33,801 nucleotides of DNA from contig NZ_CAJXYK010000056.1 in NCBI RefSeq assembly GCF_913063425.1, positions 1 through 33,801 of the forward strand. The letters are read 5' to 3'. The position numbers were made by a program, and so were the translations under genes. This document shows positions 21,819-27,152 of this stretch, piece after piece (within the stretch, counting starts at the first letter, position 1; every line of letters starts with the position of its first letter). Origin of the DNA: an uncultured Thiohalocapsa sp. (GTDB taxonomy: Bacteria; Pseudomonadota; Gammaproteobacteria; Chromatiales; Chromatiaceae). The notes beneath the pieces are model-generated. The model was not told where the DNA came from, searched no databases, and was given only the letters and a program-made list of their open reading frames with translations.

Positions 21819-22345
21819 GGACTTGCTCGATACATCGTCGGGCCGGTGCGATGGCGGCTGCCGGCCTTACTCGCTCCGCGACTGCAACGTCGCCGGCGGC
21901 GGTCGCTCCACAGCAGACCGTGTTCGCCGACTTAAACCCAACGATAGATCACCCAAGGCTGCTGCGGTAGCGGGTGTGTTCTGCTCGTGACGAAGCCGCG
22001 CATCACGCCGCTGGAAGGCTGTTGCACGCCTAGGCGGCGTTGCGGTAGTGGCGTCTGCGCCAGCCCCGTGGGGCGCCGCGTGCCGCAGGCGTGGGCCCAG
22101 AGCCGGACGGCCATTGCCGGTGTTGGACGCCAGGCGCTCGGGTCTGTGGTGGGGCCTGCCCGCAGGCGGGCATGGCGTCCACGCGGCGGTGGCGCCTGGT
22201 GCGCCGCGGCTCGGCGCCGGCGCTCCGAAGCCGGGCTGACCCGCGTGGGCCGGGCTGCCGTTCGGCGTTGATGCTTGTCATTGACCTCGGCTCGGCGCAT
22301 GATTCGGTTCCGGCTGCGGCTCGACGTCCCCTGGAGGAAGCGCCC
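21819..22345. other. Gene-free region before the peroxidase/P450 cluster
   Basis: About 530 very GC-rich bases with no frame that looks coding. It contains short palindromes such as GCCTGCCCGCAGGC near 22159 and a TTGACC at about 22282 that might be a -35, but with no good -10 at the right distance. The promoter of the 22346 gene should lie here. No OxyR-type site was recognised by eye. Confidence 0.45.
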
Positions 22346-22993
22346 ATGTCCAACCTCGCCGGCAAGGCCTACGGGATGAACGTCATCACCCCGATGCGGC
22401 CATCCCGGACCTGGATCAATCGGCTGATCTTCATGGTCGCCCGGCTCAAGCCCGCGGTGCTGTCCGGGCTGCTCGGGCTGTCGCTGATCCACTTCGCGCG
22501 CTGGTTCATGATCAAGCGCGACCAGTGGCCGGACCTGGGGCAGGGGCCGGAGCAGCTGCAGTTCGACTACATGTTCTTCTGCAGCAACTTCAACGGCACC
22601 TGGGATCAGTACATCGACGCCTTCGCCGACGGCATCCCGAGCGGGCTGGATCTGTTCTGGTACTCCAGCATCAAGTATCCCAAGTCGATTCCGCTCACGC
22701 CCTTCAAGTCCTACATCGTCCACAACCAGCTGGACACCCAGTACTACTACAACGCCACCCCCGGCAGCGCCCAGCGGGACATCAAGGGTGCGCTGCGGGT
22801 CATGGCCGCGCTGCGCGAGCTCGCTGCGCAGCACCCGGACATGACGCCGGCCGAATTCGCGGCGGCCTACCGCAAGGCGCTGCGCACGGTGCAGACCAGC
22901 CTGGGTGCCCCGGGGCTCGCCCCGGTGGCGAGCAACGCCACCTTCGACGCCGAGCGCAACCTGAAGCCGCTGCTCGAGGCCCGCTGGGGCTGA
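22346..22993 (+). CDS. Conserved protein of unknown function, HFARW family, first gene of cluster
   Basis: 215 residues; GGAGGA eight bases before the ATG fixes the start. Seen: LSLIHFARWFMI at 45-56, FDYMFFCSNFNGTWDQYIDAF at 73-93 and PFKSYIVHNQLDTQYYY at 119-135. I have seen this HFARW / FxSNFNGxWDQYIDAF pattern as a conserved family without assigned function. No clear signal peptide or membrane helix; 36-56 is only moderately hydrophobic. The motifs recur in modified form in the next gene (NHLARFVV, YLFFGADIDA, FFRYIKD), so the two are probably paralogues. Alternating strands and helices would suit a ferredoxin-like fold, as in DyP peroxidases; that is inference. 97 bases separate it from the next gene. 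Confidence 0.8.
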   Translation: MSNLAGKAYGMNVITPMRPSRTWINRLIFMVARLKPAVLSGLLGLSLIHFARWFMIKRDQWPDLGQGPEQLQFDYMFFCSNFNGTWDQYIDAFADGIPSGLDLFWYSSIKYPKSIPLTPFKSYIVHNQLDTQYYYNATPGSAQRDIKGALRVMAALRELAAQHPDMTPAEFAAAYRKALRTVQTSLGAPGLAPVASNATFDAERNLKPLLEARWG

Positions 22994-23090
22994 GTCCGGC
23001 GACCCAGCCCAGTCCCTCGCCATCCAGGCCCATCCCGAGCCCGGCCCATCCGACTTCCCGCTCATCCACCGTCTGACGGAGCGCTGCGCG

Positions 23091-24053
23091 ATGCCCAATT
23101 TCGACGGCGGTCATTACTTTCTGTCGGTGCTGATCCCCATCCGCACCGATGTCGAGCAGAACGCCGCAGGAGCCTGGCGCTCCCATGTGGACCTGCTGCG
23201 CGAGGAGCTGGCCCTGCTGCCGACGGCGCAGCAGAACCGCGTCTCGCGTGATGCCGAGCGGCAGAGCCCCTTCGCCCGCAATACGCTGAACCATCTCGCG
23301 CGCTTCGTCGTCATCGACGATGTGGTGTTCAACGGGCGCAGCGGGGGCAATGCGCTGTGGGAGCGGGTCCTGGGCCGCAACCCCCTGACGCCGCAGCCGG
23401 TGGACCGGCTCAAGTGCTCTTACCTCTTCTTCGGGGCGGACATCGATGCCGCGAGCGGCGACGATGCCGCCCTGCGCCGCTACACCGACGCGTTGTGGGA
23501 GACCATGCAGGACGAGCTCCGCGCCGTGCTGCGCCATTGCCTCGGCTTCGAGGCGCGTGTGCGCGACGCCGCGGGCTTCTTCCGCTACATCAAAGACTGT
23601 CAGGTCGAGACCACCATGCCCTTCAACGACTACTGGGCGAACGGTCTGCCGGTGGCGGCGGCGGACACCAGGCTGTGGCCGGTGCTGCTGGTGCCCGGGC
23701 TGACGGCGGCGGTGGCCGTGCTCGGCTTCCTGCTGCACCTGTTCGGCGCCGGTGACGGCGGCTGGATCTGGGTCAGCCTGGTGGCGCTCGCCCTCGCGGC
23801 TGCCATGGGCGCCGGCCTCTATCACTACCTGGTGGCCAAGGCGCAGGCGCCGCTGCCCAGGGCGCCGGATTCGGACCTGCCCTCGGTGCTCAAGGCGCTG
23901 TATCTCCAGCAGCACTTCACGGACTTCGCCATCGCCCAGCAGGGCGCGGACGACGGGGCCCTGTACGCGGCATTCAGGGATTTCGTGGACACCCATAAGC
24001 CCGGTGACGCCAGCGGCCCCACGCAGCCGCCGGGCGTCATCGCGGCGCGGTGA
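23091..24053 (+). CDS. Membrane-anchored paralogue of the HFARW family protein
   Basis: 320 residues. The N-terminal part has GGHYFLSVLIPI (6-17), NHLARFVVIDDVVF (67-80), CSYLFFGADIDA (109-120) and FFRYIKDCQVETTMPFNDYW (163-182). These parallel HFARW, YMFFCSNFNG and FKSYIVHNQ of the preceding protein. Two membrane helices follow at about 196-218 and 224-248, then a short hydrophilic C-terminus with YLQQHFTDFAIAQ. The positively charged VAKAQAPLPR after the second helix suggests that both ends are cytoplasmic. ACGGAG lies before the ATG. Eleven bases separate it from the peroxidase gene. Function unknown; it might tether a redox complex to the membrane. Confidence 0.8.
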   Translation: MPNFDGGHYFLSVLIPIRTDVEQNAAGAWRSHVDLLREELALLPTAQQNRVSRDAERQSPFARNTLNHLARFVVIDDVVFNGRSGGNALWERVLGRNPLTPQPVDRLKCSYLFFGADIDAASGDDAALRRYTDALWETMQDELRAVLRHCLGFEARVRDAAGFFRYIKDCQVETTMPFNDYWANGLPVAAADTRLWPVLLVPGLTAAVAVLGFLLHLFGAGDGGWIWVSLVALALAAAMGAGLYHYLVAKAQAPLPRAPDSDLPSVLKALYLQQHFTDFAIAQQGADDGALYAAFRDFVDTHKPGDASGPTQPPGVIAAR

Positions 24054-24064
24054 GGAGGCACCCC

Positions 24065-25759
24065 GTGAGCACGACCCATCTCGACCTCGCCGACATCCAG
24101 GGCAATGTGGTCCGCGCCTACGGGCGCTTCGGCTTCCCCTGCGCGCGCTATTACTTCCTGCGCGTAGACCCGGCGCAGGGCGCCGATGGCCGCGCCTTCG
24201 TGGACCGGGTGCGCCGGCGCATCACCACCGCCGTGCGCTGGCGCCAGGGGCCGAACGAGACCGCCCCGGGCGCCGTGGACGCCCCGGATGCGACCCTCAA
24301 CATCGCCTTCACCTTCTACGGGCTCCTGGCACTCGGCCTGCCCACCAGCGTACTGGCGCGCATGCCGCCCGAATTCATCGAGGGCATGCCCGGGCGCACC
24401 TACATCCTGGGTGACGCGGGCGACAACGCCCCCGAGCACTGGGACCCCCTCTGGCGCACCAACGCGGAGAAGCGCGTCAGCGGCGGGCAGATGGCCGCCG
24501 ACGGCGAGCTTGGCCACGTGCACATCTGGCTCGCCATCAACGCCCGCAGCATGGAGCACATGGAGACCGCCCACGAGGCGCTGATGGCGGACATCGCCGC
24601 CCACCCGGGCGTGAGCCTGCTGTCGGGCAACGGCGCGGAGGGCGCCGACTACCAGGCCGCTTCGGCCATCTTCGCGCCGGGGCCGGACGGCACGCTGGTG
24701 CCCACCGGCAAGGAGCACTTCGGCTTCACCGACGGCATCGGCGACCCGGTGTTCGACGGCCGCTATGAGCCCGATGTGGAGGCGCGCCGGGTCAAGGGCC
24801 GCGGCCGGCTCACCCCGGCGCCGGAGCAGCGCTGGGTGCCGCTCGCCGCGGGTGAGTTCCTGCTCGGCCATGCGGACGAGTCCCAGGAGCTGCCGCCCAC
24901 GGCGCCGCCCTGGGAATTCACCCGCAACGGCACCTTCATGGTGTTCCGCAAGCTGCACCAGAACGTCAAAACCTTCCAGGACTACATGGCCGGGCAGGCG
25001 GGGCTGTTCGGCCGGCTGTGGGGGCTCGAGGGCGAGGCGGCGCTGGCCACGCTCAAGGCCAAATTCATCGGCCGCTGGAGCGACGGCATCCCACTCATCG
25101 CCGCGCCCACCTATGACGACTGGCGACGGTTGCAGCACGCGTGGCAGGACATCCCGGCCATTGCGCTCAAGCCGCGGGGCGAGCGCACCCCGGCGGAGCA
25201 GGCGCGCAAGGACGCCTACGACGCGCTGCTCGCGGACTTCACCTTCGGCGACGACAAAGACGGCATCAAGTGCCCTTATGGTGCACACCTGCGGCGCGTC
25301 AACACCCGCGACATGCTGGACCCGGAGTTGCACAGCGGCAATCCGGACGCGCGCACCGGCTCTTCGCTCAACAAGCGCCGGCGCATCCTGCGCCGCGGGC
25401 TGCCCTACGGGCATGTGGACCCGGACAATCCCACGGATGACGGCGAGCACGGCGTCATCTTCATCGCCCTGTGCGCCAGCCTGAGCCGGCAGTTCGAATT
25501 CCTTCAGCAGCAGTGGATCCAGTACGGGCTCGACTTCAACACCGGCAACGACACCTGCCCGCTGGTGGGCAACCATCGCCTCGACGACAGGCTCCCCGCC
25601 ACCAAGCACGTCATCGCCGCGGACCCGGCCGGCAATGCACCGCCCTTCATCGCCGCCGACCTGCCGAGCTTCGTCACCACCCGTGGCGGCGACTATTTCT
25701 TCCTGCCCGGCATCAATGCGCTGCGCATGATCGCCCAGGGCAGTGTGGACCCCACCTGA
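24065..25759 (+). CDS. DyP-type haem peroxidase
   Basis: 564 residues from GTG 24065, chosen because AGGAGG lies seven bases upstream. Dye-decolourising peroxidases use H2O2 to oxidise varied substrates. Seen: the hallmark GxxDG as FGFTDGIGD with the catalytic Asp at 223, the proximal haem ligand His408 in PYGAHLRRVNTRD, the substrate/haem segment RTGSSLNKRRRILRRG, and the C-terminal FVTTRGGDYFFLPGI. It is longer than the compact bacterial types (about 300-400 residues) and nearer the large C/D-type enzymes, with an insertion around 320-395. No Tat or Sec signal and no encapsulin-targeting tail that I recognise, so it is probably cytoplasmic. The P450 gene follows after 13 bases. Confidence 0.93.
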   Translation: MSTTHLDLADIQGNVVRAYGRFGFPCARYYFLRVDPAQGADGRAFVDRVRRRITTAVRWRQGPNETAPGAVDAPDATLNIAFTFYGLLALGLPTSVLARMPPEFIEGMPGRTYILGDAGDNAPEHWDPLWRTNAEKRVSGGQMAADGELGHVHIWLAINARSMEHMETAHEALMADIAAHPGVSLLSGNGAEGADYQAASAIFAPGPDGTLVPTGKEHFGFTDGIGDPVFDGRYEPDVEARRVKGRGRLTPAPEQRWVPLAAGEFLLGHADESQELPPTAPPWEFTRNGTFMVFRKLHQNVKTFQDYMAGQAGLFGRLWGLEGEAALATLKAKFIGRWSDGIPLIAAPTYDDWRRLQHAWQDIPAIALKPRGERTPAEQARKDAYDALLADFTFGDDKDGIKCPYGAHLRRVNTRDMLDPELHSGNPDARTGSSLNKRRRILRRGLPYGHVDPDNPTDDGEHGVIFIALCASLSRQFEFLQQQWIQYGLDFNTGNDTCPLVGNHRLDDRLPATKHVIAADPAGNAPPFIAADLPSFVTTRGGDYFFLPGINALRMIAQGSVDPT

Positions 25760-25772
25760 GCGGGGCAGGGCA

Positions 25773-27152
25773 ATGGCCTTCCTGATGACTCTGCTGCGGC
25801 TGCCGGTGCGCTGGCTCGGCACACTCGGCGGCGGCATCGCGGACCTCGTGGCCCTGATCAAGCTCCTGGCCGGCGCCTTCCCCGGCGACAAGGCGGGCCG
25901 GCAGCAGCGCGTGCTCGGCGTGCTCGCCACCACCGCCGGTCAGCGGGCGCTGTTCGGCGTGCTGCGGGTCTTTTGGGCCAATCTGGTGCTGGGCCGCAGG
26001 CTGGTGGCGGCCTACGACAACACCGGCACCGCCATCGTGACCCGCGATGCCGACGTGCGCGAGGTGCTCGCGCGGGATGCGGACTTCCTGGTGGTCTACG
26101 AGCCGCGCATGCGCCGGATCACGGATGGTGAGAACTTCTTTCTCGGCATGCAGGACTCGCCCGCCTATCAGCGCAACGTCTCCGTCATGCGGCTCGCGGC
26201 GCGCTGGGAGGATGTGAGCGCGATCATCCTGCCCACCGTGGAGGCGCATGCCGGCACCATCGTGGCGGACGCCGGGGGCAGGCTCGACGTCCCCGCACAG
26301 CTGACGCTGCCGGTGGTCGCCGACATGGTGGCGCGCTATTTCGGCACGCCGGTGGGGGGCCACGGGCAGCCGAGCCGGGACGACCTGATCGCCTGGACCA
26401 GCGTCATGTTCTGGTACCTGTTCATCGACCTGGGCGCGGACCCGAAGGTGGACCGCAAGGCCATGGTCGCCGCCGCCGCCGCCCGGCGCTGGCTGGACCA
26501 GTGCATCGCAGCCCGGAAGGCGTCGCCGACCGAGACCGACGACGTGCTGAACCGCTGCCTGGACCTCCAACGCGCGGGCATCCCCGGCTTCGATGACGTC
26601 GGCATCCGCAACAACCTCATCGGGCTCATCATCGGCGCCGTGCCGACGCTCTCCCGCGCCGCGGTGCAGGCGCTCGATCAGTTGCTGGACCGCCCGGAGC
26701 CCCTCGCCGCCGCCTGCGCCGCCGCGGGCGCCGACCATGCTTCCAAGCTCGCGGACATCGTCTTCGAAGCCCTGCGCTTCAACCCCGTGAACCCGTTCAT
26801 CTACCGTCGCGCCCTGGTGGACACGACCATCGCCCAGGGCACGCTGCGCGCCCGACGCATTCCGAAGGACACGCTGGTGCTTGCCGCCAACCTGAGCGCC
26901 ATGTTCGACCCCGCCCGGCTGGACGTCCCGGAGCGCTTCGACGCGGGCCGCCCCTGGGACGACTACATGCTCTGGGGCCATGGGCTGCACACCTGCTTCG
27001 GCCGCCACATCAACCGCGCCGTGGTACCGGCGCTGCTGAAGCCGCTCCTCGCCGCCGGCACGCCGCACCGTGCCCCGGGCGAGGCAGGGCAGATCGACAC
27101 CGCCGGCACGCCCTTCCCGGCGCACCTGACCGTGGAGCTGGGGCGGGGCTGA
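25773..27152 (+). CDS. Cytochrome P450 with atypical I-helix
   Basis: 459 residues. The haem-binding loop is WGHGLHTCFGRHINRA with the thiolate ligand Cys408, and the K-helix EALR is at 332-335. In the I-helix (282-300) the usual [A/G]Gx[D/E]T is GAVPT: the acidic residue that helps activate O2 is replaced by Pro291 before Thr292. Such changes are known in P450s that use peroxides or rearrange hydroperoxides (CYP152, CYP74). No ferredoxin or reductase gene lies nearby. The N-terminus is hydrophobic (MAFLMTLLRLPVRWLGTLGG) and may touch the membrane. 13 bases after the DyP gene; last gene of the cluster. Substrate unknown. Confidence 0.9.
   Translation: MAFLMTLLRLPVRWLGTLGGGIADLVALIKLLAGAFPGDKAGRQQRVLGVLATTAGQRALFGVLRVFWANLVLGRRLVAAYDNTGTAIVTRDADVREVLARDADFLVVYEPRMRRITDGENFFLGMQDSPAYQRNVSVMRLAARWEDVSAIILPTVEAHAGTIVADAGGRLDVPAQLTLPVVADMVARYFGTPVGGHGQPSRDDLIAWTSVMFWYLFIDLGADPKVDRKAMVAAAAARRWLDQCIAARKASPTETDDVLNRCLDLQRAGIPGFDDVGIRNNLIGLIIGAVPTLSRAAVQALDQLLDRPEPLAAACAAAGADHASKLADIVFEALRFNPVNPFIYRRALVDTTIAQGTLRARRIPKDTLVLAANLSAMFDPARLDVPERFDAGRPWDDYMLWGHGLHTCFGRHINRAVVPALLKPLLAAGTPHRAPGEAGQIDTAGTPFPAHLTVELGRG

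Follow-up and report, generated by a model that had tools for sequence, protein, structure and literature searches.

What do two haem enzymes and two proteins of no assigned family do together when their genes lie end to end? The question is raised by a cluster in a 33,801-nucleotide stretch of DNA (the window, meaning the whole stretch that was analysed) from an uncultured Thiohalocapsa sp., a purple sulphur bacterium. The first gene (22346..22993, + strand) encodes HFARW, a protein of 215 residues (core motif IHFARW; FFCSNFNGTWDQYIDAF). The second (23091..24053, +) encodes a 320-residue HFARW paralogue with an inserted two-helix membrane hairpin, the third (24065..25759, +) a DyP-type haem peroxidase of 564 residues that starts at a GTG codon, with an alternative GTG at 24050, and the fourth (25773..27152, +) a cytochrome P450 of 459 residues. 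An earlier note, made from the letters of the window, had described four same-strand genes separated by gaps of 97, 11, and 13 bases and had proposed a peroxide-driven oxidation route; coordinates and open reading frames (ORFs) confirm the arrangement. We find that the observation was right and larger than first claimed, and that the four genes are well shown to be one functional module.

The four genes form a conserved module

We searched a genome collection holding one genome per species (84,980 species) for HFARW, found 485 relatives, and kept the best 80 loci, those nearest to the window, for analysis. All four genes are present at 54 of these 80 best loci, and in all 54 they stand in the window order on one strand (one of them, L087:8079-12833, is a complete operon split by frame breaks, through decay or assembly errors). 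At a further 15 loci, genes 1 to 3 are followed by over 2.5 kb of sequence without a full P450 gene (L033 carries a P450 fragment); 11 others are interrupted by contig ends. The four-gene order recurs across many alpha- and gammaproteobacterial families. In Betaproteobacteria, the three loci show no more than genes 1 to 3, and two of these loci run into a contig end. The co-occurrence that the earlier note had proposed to look for thus extends well beyond Thiohalocapsa, with the HFARW–DyP core present in four phyla (outside Pseudomonadota in Deinococcus, Rhodococcus koreensis, and the acidobacterium Granulicella) and with parts of the module fused into single chains.

An even draw of 398 Pseudomonadota genomes gave the same picture. 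The HFARW core domain occurs in 27 of them, a count that includes the window's own genome, and a DyP lies within about 1.1 kb or on the same chain in 27 of 27. The second haem enzyme in these genomes is a P450 in 16 (that of L140 counted by our own profile only, Pfam giving it no family), a catalase-like protein in 7, and a protein that is P450-like by haem motif only in 1; profiles found no second haem enzyme in the other 3. This P450 family (at E 1e-20) occurs in 19 genomes, and in 15 of the 19 it sits at an HFARW–DyP locus. For plasmids, we compared 20 of 81 DyP records with 40 of 41 catalase-linked HFARW records; in all 15 plasmid records present in both lists, the two matches are less than 300 bases apart. 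We conclude that the module has a conserved core, made up of HFARW, the HFARW paralogue anchored in the membrane, and DyP, and that the second haem enzyme is exchangeable, being a P450, a catalase-like protein, or none that was found.

Two to four parts of the module are one polypeptide in several lineages, which is strong evidence that the parts work together. A P450, an HFARW domain, and a DyP form one chain of 1,408–1,620 residues at nine loci (L124–L126, L135–L137, and L149–L151), whose named carriers include Pararhizobium qamdonense, Novosphingobium aromaticivorans pNL2, and a Sulfitobacter; L124/L137 and L125/L126 are near-copies. A single protein of Rhizobium leguminosarum joins a gene-2-like region, recognized by eye, to a membrane part, an HFARW domain, and a DyP. 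This fusion is found (L011:1-14883) among a CHAT-domain protein, nucleases, and a DpnII-type restriction–modification pair. At L144, DyP is fused to a catalase-like domain, and at L139:392-5155 one chain of 1,587 residues holds HFARW, DyP, a P450-like stretch with a haem motif, and a GDSL-lipase-like domain (27 bits, under the Pfam cut-off of 32.9).

Nearer to the window, its HFARW is 87–93% identical to the nearest named records, all of them Thiohalocapsa. HFARW and DyP occur together in four of ten Thiohalocapsa genomes (a set that contains the window's own), and the other six have neither. Over all four genes, the ratio of nonsynonymous to synonymous substitution rates is 0.09–0.43 in 15 pairwise comparisons (0.09–0.24 for the HFARW gene alone), and all four look to be under purifying selection. 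Of the three Thiohalocapsa relatives that have HFARW, two carry rimI, which lies upstream in the window, on the same contig as the cluster, and the third carries it on a different one; glpK, downstream in the window, is on a separate contig from HFARW in both relatives that have it. The cluster therefore behaves as a separate unit, and the glpK placement led us to drop a tie to the downstream glycerol genes. Among the open-licence papers listed by literature searches, no title or abstract opening describes this cluster.

The two proteins of no assigned family are paralogues

The earlier note had regarded the first two products as members of one family without assigned function, one of them bearing two membrane helices. 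No Pfam or NCBIfam family matches either protein above its cut-off, and a hydropathy scan places the helices of the second at residues 197–215 (23679..23735, +) and 225–243 (23763..23819, +). The kinship is not visible to direct comparison: BLASTP of the window HFARW against gene 2 gave no match, and hhalign of two narrow alignments gave a weak one. It emerges through intermediate sequences. The second gene of the Granulicella cluster (L006) matches an HFARW-only profile (58 bits, E 9e-17) and also the second-gene profile, and the second genes of L113, L114, L115, and L118 bridge the two profiles likewise, more weakly. These five are short relatives of gene 2 (197–235 residues) that have no hairpin. 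Because such intermediates match both profiles, genes 1 and 2 are paralogues as judged from sequence. A broad core profile of 17 rows, 3 of them of second-gene type, found window gene 2 at E 1.2e-9; a later hhalign of the two families gave 99.3%, a value that is partly circular since 3 of the 17 rows are of second-gene type.

The HFARW alignment has 58 invariant columns over 80 rows. Read by eye, its conserved stretches run strand, helix, strand (IHFARW), strand (FFSNFDG), helix, strand, a pattern which suggests that HFARW and its paralogue are ferredoxin-like alpha+beta domains. DyPs are themselves described as alpha+beta barrels built of ferredoxin-like domains (PMC4835899). A comparison of the HFARW and DyP profiles gave no match, and the best PDB match of the two proteins, an oligogalacturonate lyase (E 6e-4 over 30 columns), was taken as chance.

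DyP-linked P450s lack the acid of the acid–alcohol pair

Both haem enzymes are what the earlier note had called them. Gene 3 carries a Dyp_perox_C domain (31.2 bits, cut-off 20) and gene 4 matches PF00067 (36 bits, cut-off 22.8). The DyP_N score of gene 3, 19.9 bits, is under the cut-off of 27.5, and its TIGR01413 score, 97 bits against a curated cut-off of 100.5, is a narrow miss in a long, divergent DyP member. The haem-site residues Asp223 (distal, in GXXDG), His408 (proximal), Arg443, and Arg444 are each conserved in 76 of 76 rows, and in the window DyP all four fall on matching stretches of 8re3, which with 8re2 is its closest solved relative. The Cys408 ligand and ExxR motif of the P450 are likewise kept in 54 of 54 rows.

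The P450 departs from its class in the I helix. We scored the acid–alcohol pair in an alignment of 86 P450 rows, leaving two fragments unscored. Among DyP-linked P450s, 75 rows could be scored: Pro occupies the acid position in 74 of them, the window included, and Ala in one. By this pair, the mark of an O2/reductase-type monooxygenase, the window P450 falls outside that type: its acid is replaced by Pro291 (codon 26643..26645, +), next to a retained Thr292. Eight sister P450s have Glu-Thr at the pair (8 of 8), and no DyP was found in the stretches fetched around them. An HMMER alignment that put the Pro at the alcohol was rejected, as alignment with the close sisters puts it at the acid. As aligned, the P450s of the DyP setting are thus shown to be without the acid used in O2 activation. 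P450 peroxygenases without an acid–alcohol pair have been described (PMC10988616), and reductase-free fungal 9-AOS P450s are reported to carry Pro in the I helix as (V/A)PxT or TPxG (PMC13049297).

The sister P450s keep company of another kind. A RoxA-like gene is near those of L131, L132, L133, L146, and L148 (L131 and L146 are identical, and other ORFs lie between the two genes in L148 and possibly in L132), and a cyclooxygenase-like gene is near those of L145 (4857-7774), L147 (4872-7774), and L152 (4917-7831). The best solved match of the L145 protein is cyclooxygenase-2 (E 4.6e-53). PF03098, the animal haem peroxidase family by which we tested for the DOX-CYP kind, matches beside these three of the eight sisters and in none of the four window proteins. 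RoxA-like proteins include the oleate 10S-dioxygenase and the diol synthase of Pseudomonas aeruginosa (PMC4496055), and fatty-acid dioxygenases are among the cyclooxygenase-like family (PMC13049297). The three cyclooxygenase-like loci are on plasmids of Sinorhizobium medicae, Rhizobium etli, and Rhizobium gallicum and form a bacterial look-alike of fungal DOX-CYP.

A peroxide cascade as the working model

We consider it about evenly balanced whether the module is a membrane-tied, two-haem cascade acting on peroxides or hydroperoxides, like fungal DOX-CYP but based on DyP. HFARW and its paralogue would pair into a membrane-attached scaffold that holds DyP and the substrate; DyP would form or activate a peroxide of the held substrate; and the P450 or catalase-like protein would then cleave the O–O bond as a peroxygenase or hydroperoxide isomerase, using no reductase. 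The substrate is most likely a lipid, such as an unsaturated fatty acid, in which case the products would resemble oxylipins.

A different possibility is that the P450 is a normal O2/reductase enzyme fed by a distant ferredoxin, with DyP acting separately on the secondary metabolite or aromatic compound that the P450 also modifies. It is common for bacterial P450s to rely on housekeeping ferredoxins, and Thr292 and the haem-binding motifs are intact. We nonetheless regard such oxidative tailoring as unlikely: besides the Pro at the acid position, the neighbouring genes speak against it. Among 581 ORFs of at least 100 residues lying within 5 kb of the 80 loci on either side, no redox-partner gene family recurs (recurrence being presence at six or more loci), a scan for small-ferredoxin motifs gave hits at 8 of 53 loci in scattered positions, and a Pfam scan of two of the fused chains showed no reductase domain. 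The peroxide-driven route of the earlier note therefore gains support from the loss of the acid and from the lack of a recurrent redox-partner gene, and its reaction stays inferred.

The one neighbour family that does recur is a GST-like protein with Pfam GST_C domains. Its gene follows the P450 gene, usually within about 30 bases, at 26 of 52 loci with room for it (e.g., L019:12974-13810); the 15 loci without a P450 gave no match, and a search of the window's genome at E 0.01 gave none either. Where present, this fifth protein may deal with the reactive product of the proposed cascade.

A catalase-like protein can take the place of the P450

The earlier note had remarked on the lack of a catalase, which holds at the window locus and fails elsewhere, as a catalase-like gene replaces the P450 in other members. 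In L118, for instance, a catalase-family gene comes after a window-type core, where the P450 gene would otherwise stand. All 14 catalase-like rows (12 partners and 2 extra nearby genes) contain the haem-ligand motif RxxxY. The distal His is kept in 8 of the 12 partners; it is Asn in four (L119:9833, L123:4847, L128:4697, and L144:8688) and Gln in both extra genes (L128:9220 and L144:3179). At least some of these proteins are thus unlikely to be true catalases.

To this branch belongs the DyP of Deinococcus radiodurans (DR_A0145; 8re2/8re3), which is flanked on one side by an HFARW-like gene and on the other by a catalase-family gene. It resembles the window enzyme in being its nearest solved DyP and in having an HFARW-like neighbour; it differs in having no P450 at its locus and in a Met in its GXXDG motif, where the window has GFTDG (PMC10820274). 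The same report describes the protein alone as inactive at physiological pH, with its authors speculating that other proteins control it, and calls the physiological role and biological substrates of DyPs unclear (PMC10820274). The HFARW-like neighbour is an obvious candidate for such a controller. The D. radiodurans cluster is preceded by a 3-hydroxyacyl-CoA dehydrogenase gene, which the Acinetobacter lwoffii cluster also adjoins.

The catalase branch invites a reading as peroxide defence, in which DyP and its catalase-like or P450 partner remove H2O2 or organic peroxides during oxidative stress and the membrane protein positions them near the source. DyP and catalase-family pairs do recur, most of the partners have an intact distal His, D. 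radiodurans is a stress-resistant organism, and in Granulicella a Fur regulator and katG are located no more than about 5 kb from the cluster. We find this reading quite unlikely, however, in view of the partners without a distal His, the inactivity of the D. radiodurans DyP on its own at physiological pH, and the P450, which seems a poor scavenger; moreover, the fused forms adjoin cyclase/TPR or SARP-like genes and not stress regulators.

Just upstream of the P450–HFARW–DyP fusion, all nine loci have a homologous TPR protein (553–620 residues in the eight whose ORF was read; found by tblastn in L135), and five of the nine carry an N-terminal adenylate/guanylate-cyclase-like domain, which hints at signalling. 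On this reading, the module makes an oxylipin-like messenger to which the adjacent cyclase/TPR or SARP-like protein responds. We think it improbable: genes of this kind do not recur next to unfused modules, none was found in the window, several of the nine fused loci are near-copies, and the proposal is compatible with a peroxide cascade rather than opposed to it.

Relation to known two-haem systems

Among the closest parallels to the proposed cascade are the fungal DOX-P450 fusions of the Ppo type (8R-DOX-LDS and 9-DOX-AOS), described as two haem proteins on one chain: a member of the peroxidase–cyclooxygenase superfamily and a reductase-free P450, with an I-helix Pro in 9-AOS (PMC13049297). 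The module differs in that its first enzyme is a DyP and in its two further domains of no assigned family and its membrane hairpin. In Nostoc punctiforme, the hydroperoxide of 10S-DOX is handled by a catalase-related hydroperoxide lyase, as in our catalase branch, but the first enzyme is cyclooxygenase-like and the passage describing it mentions no HFARW domain (PMC13049297). Coral fusions of a catalase-type allene oxide synthase with a lipoxygenase likewise pair a catalase-family protein with a hydroperoxide maker; these are animal proteins, with lipoxygenase in place of DyP (PMC5617202, PMC3925239). CYP152 peroxygenases (OleT, BSbeta) are described as peroxide-driven and devoid of the acid–alcohol pair (PMC10988616). 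What the window P450 shares with them is the missing acid; its Thr is retained, Pro takes the acid's place, and its gene belongs to a DyP operon. The module would work like the known two-haem hydroperoxide systems and, by the sequence of its first enzyme, stands outside the DOX-CYP kind.

A lipid is the most likely substrate by analogy, and this is the weakest step of the model: it draws on the parallels with known systems, the neighbours of the sister P450s, one weak lipase-like fusion, and two acyl-CoA dehydrogenase neighbours. A more specific version is a tentative suggestion that we think rather unlikely. Here HFARW and its paralogue would form a heterodimeric barrel, bound to the membrane, in which DyP is held. 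DyP would be a new kind of haem oxygenase, one that makes hydroperoxides and passes them to a reductase-free P450 or a catalase-related isomerase in a widespread bacterial oxylipin-type pathway. This would be a third independent invention beside cyclooxygenase–P450 and lipoxygenase–catalase, and the products of the fused form would be read by cyclase/TPR or SARP-like regulators.

Several points weigh against the peroxide cascade. DyPs are H2O2-dependent peroxidases, and we know of no DyP shown to be a hydroperoxide-forming dioxygenase, nor of a substrate, product, or in-cell activity for any member of the module. PDB profile searches of HFARW and its paralogue returned nothing credible. The alcohol, Thr292, is retained in most DyP-linked P450s. 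In the P450 tree, the DyP-linked and sister groups fall on opposite sides of one branch, so that a single acid-to-Pro change is enough and the 74 rows cannot count as separate observations. Nor is loss of the acid explained by a dioxygenase-like partner alone, since the sisters have such neighbours and retain it. The search for recurrent neighbours covered ORFs of at least 100 residues, and small ferredoxins were judged by a motif scan at the loci. The P450 is missing at 15 of the 69 loci that have the first three genes and readable downstream sequence. Finally, among the matches listed, 4 of 20 plasmid DyPs (two from Rhizobium and two from Streptomyces) have no HFARW listed with them, so that an HFARW partner is not universal among DyPs.

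Other features of the window

A GGAGGA site resembling a ribosome-binding site can be read directly 5′ of gene 1 (22333..22338, +), preceded by a weak sigma-70-like promoter match (22275..22303, +). The latter is a consensus match only, at 9 of 12 positions, and the region has two sites as good where 0.4 would be expected. PADLOC gave no matches to the four window proteins or to one fused protein, and known anti-phage defence was dropped. A tmRNA gene (2175-2536, −), with tag ANDDNYALAA, is also present in the window.

Implications

The conserved partner set and the fusions tell experimenters what to co-express and which chemistry to seek. The module could give DyPs, which are poorly understood, a natural role, and it predicts that the “inactive” DyP of D. 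radiodurans lacks its neighbour protein. It also brings to light a family of natural P450s predicted to run on peroxide, which would be useful in biocatalysis.

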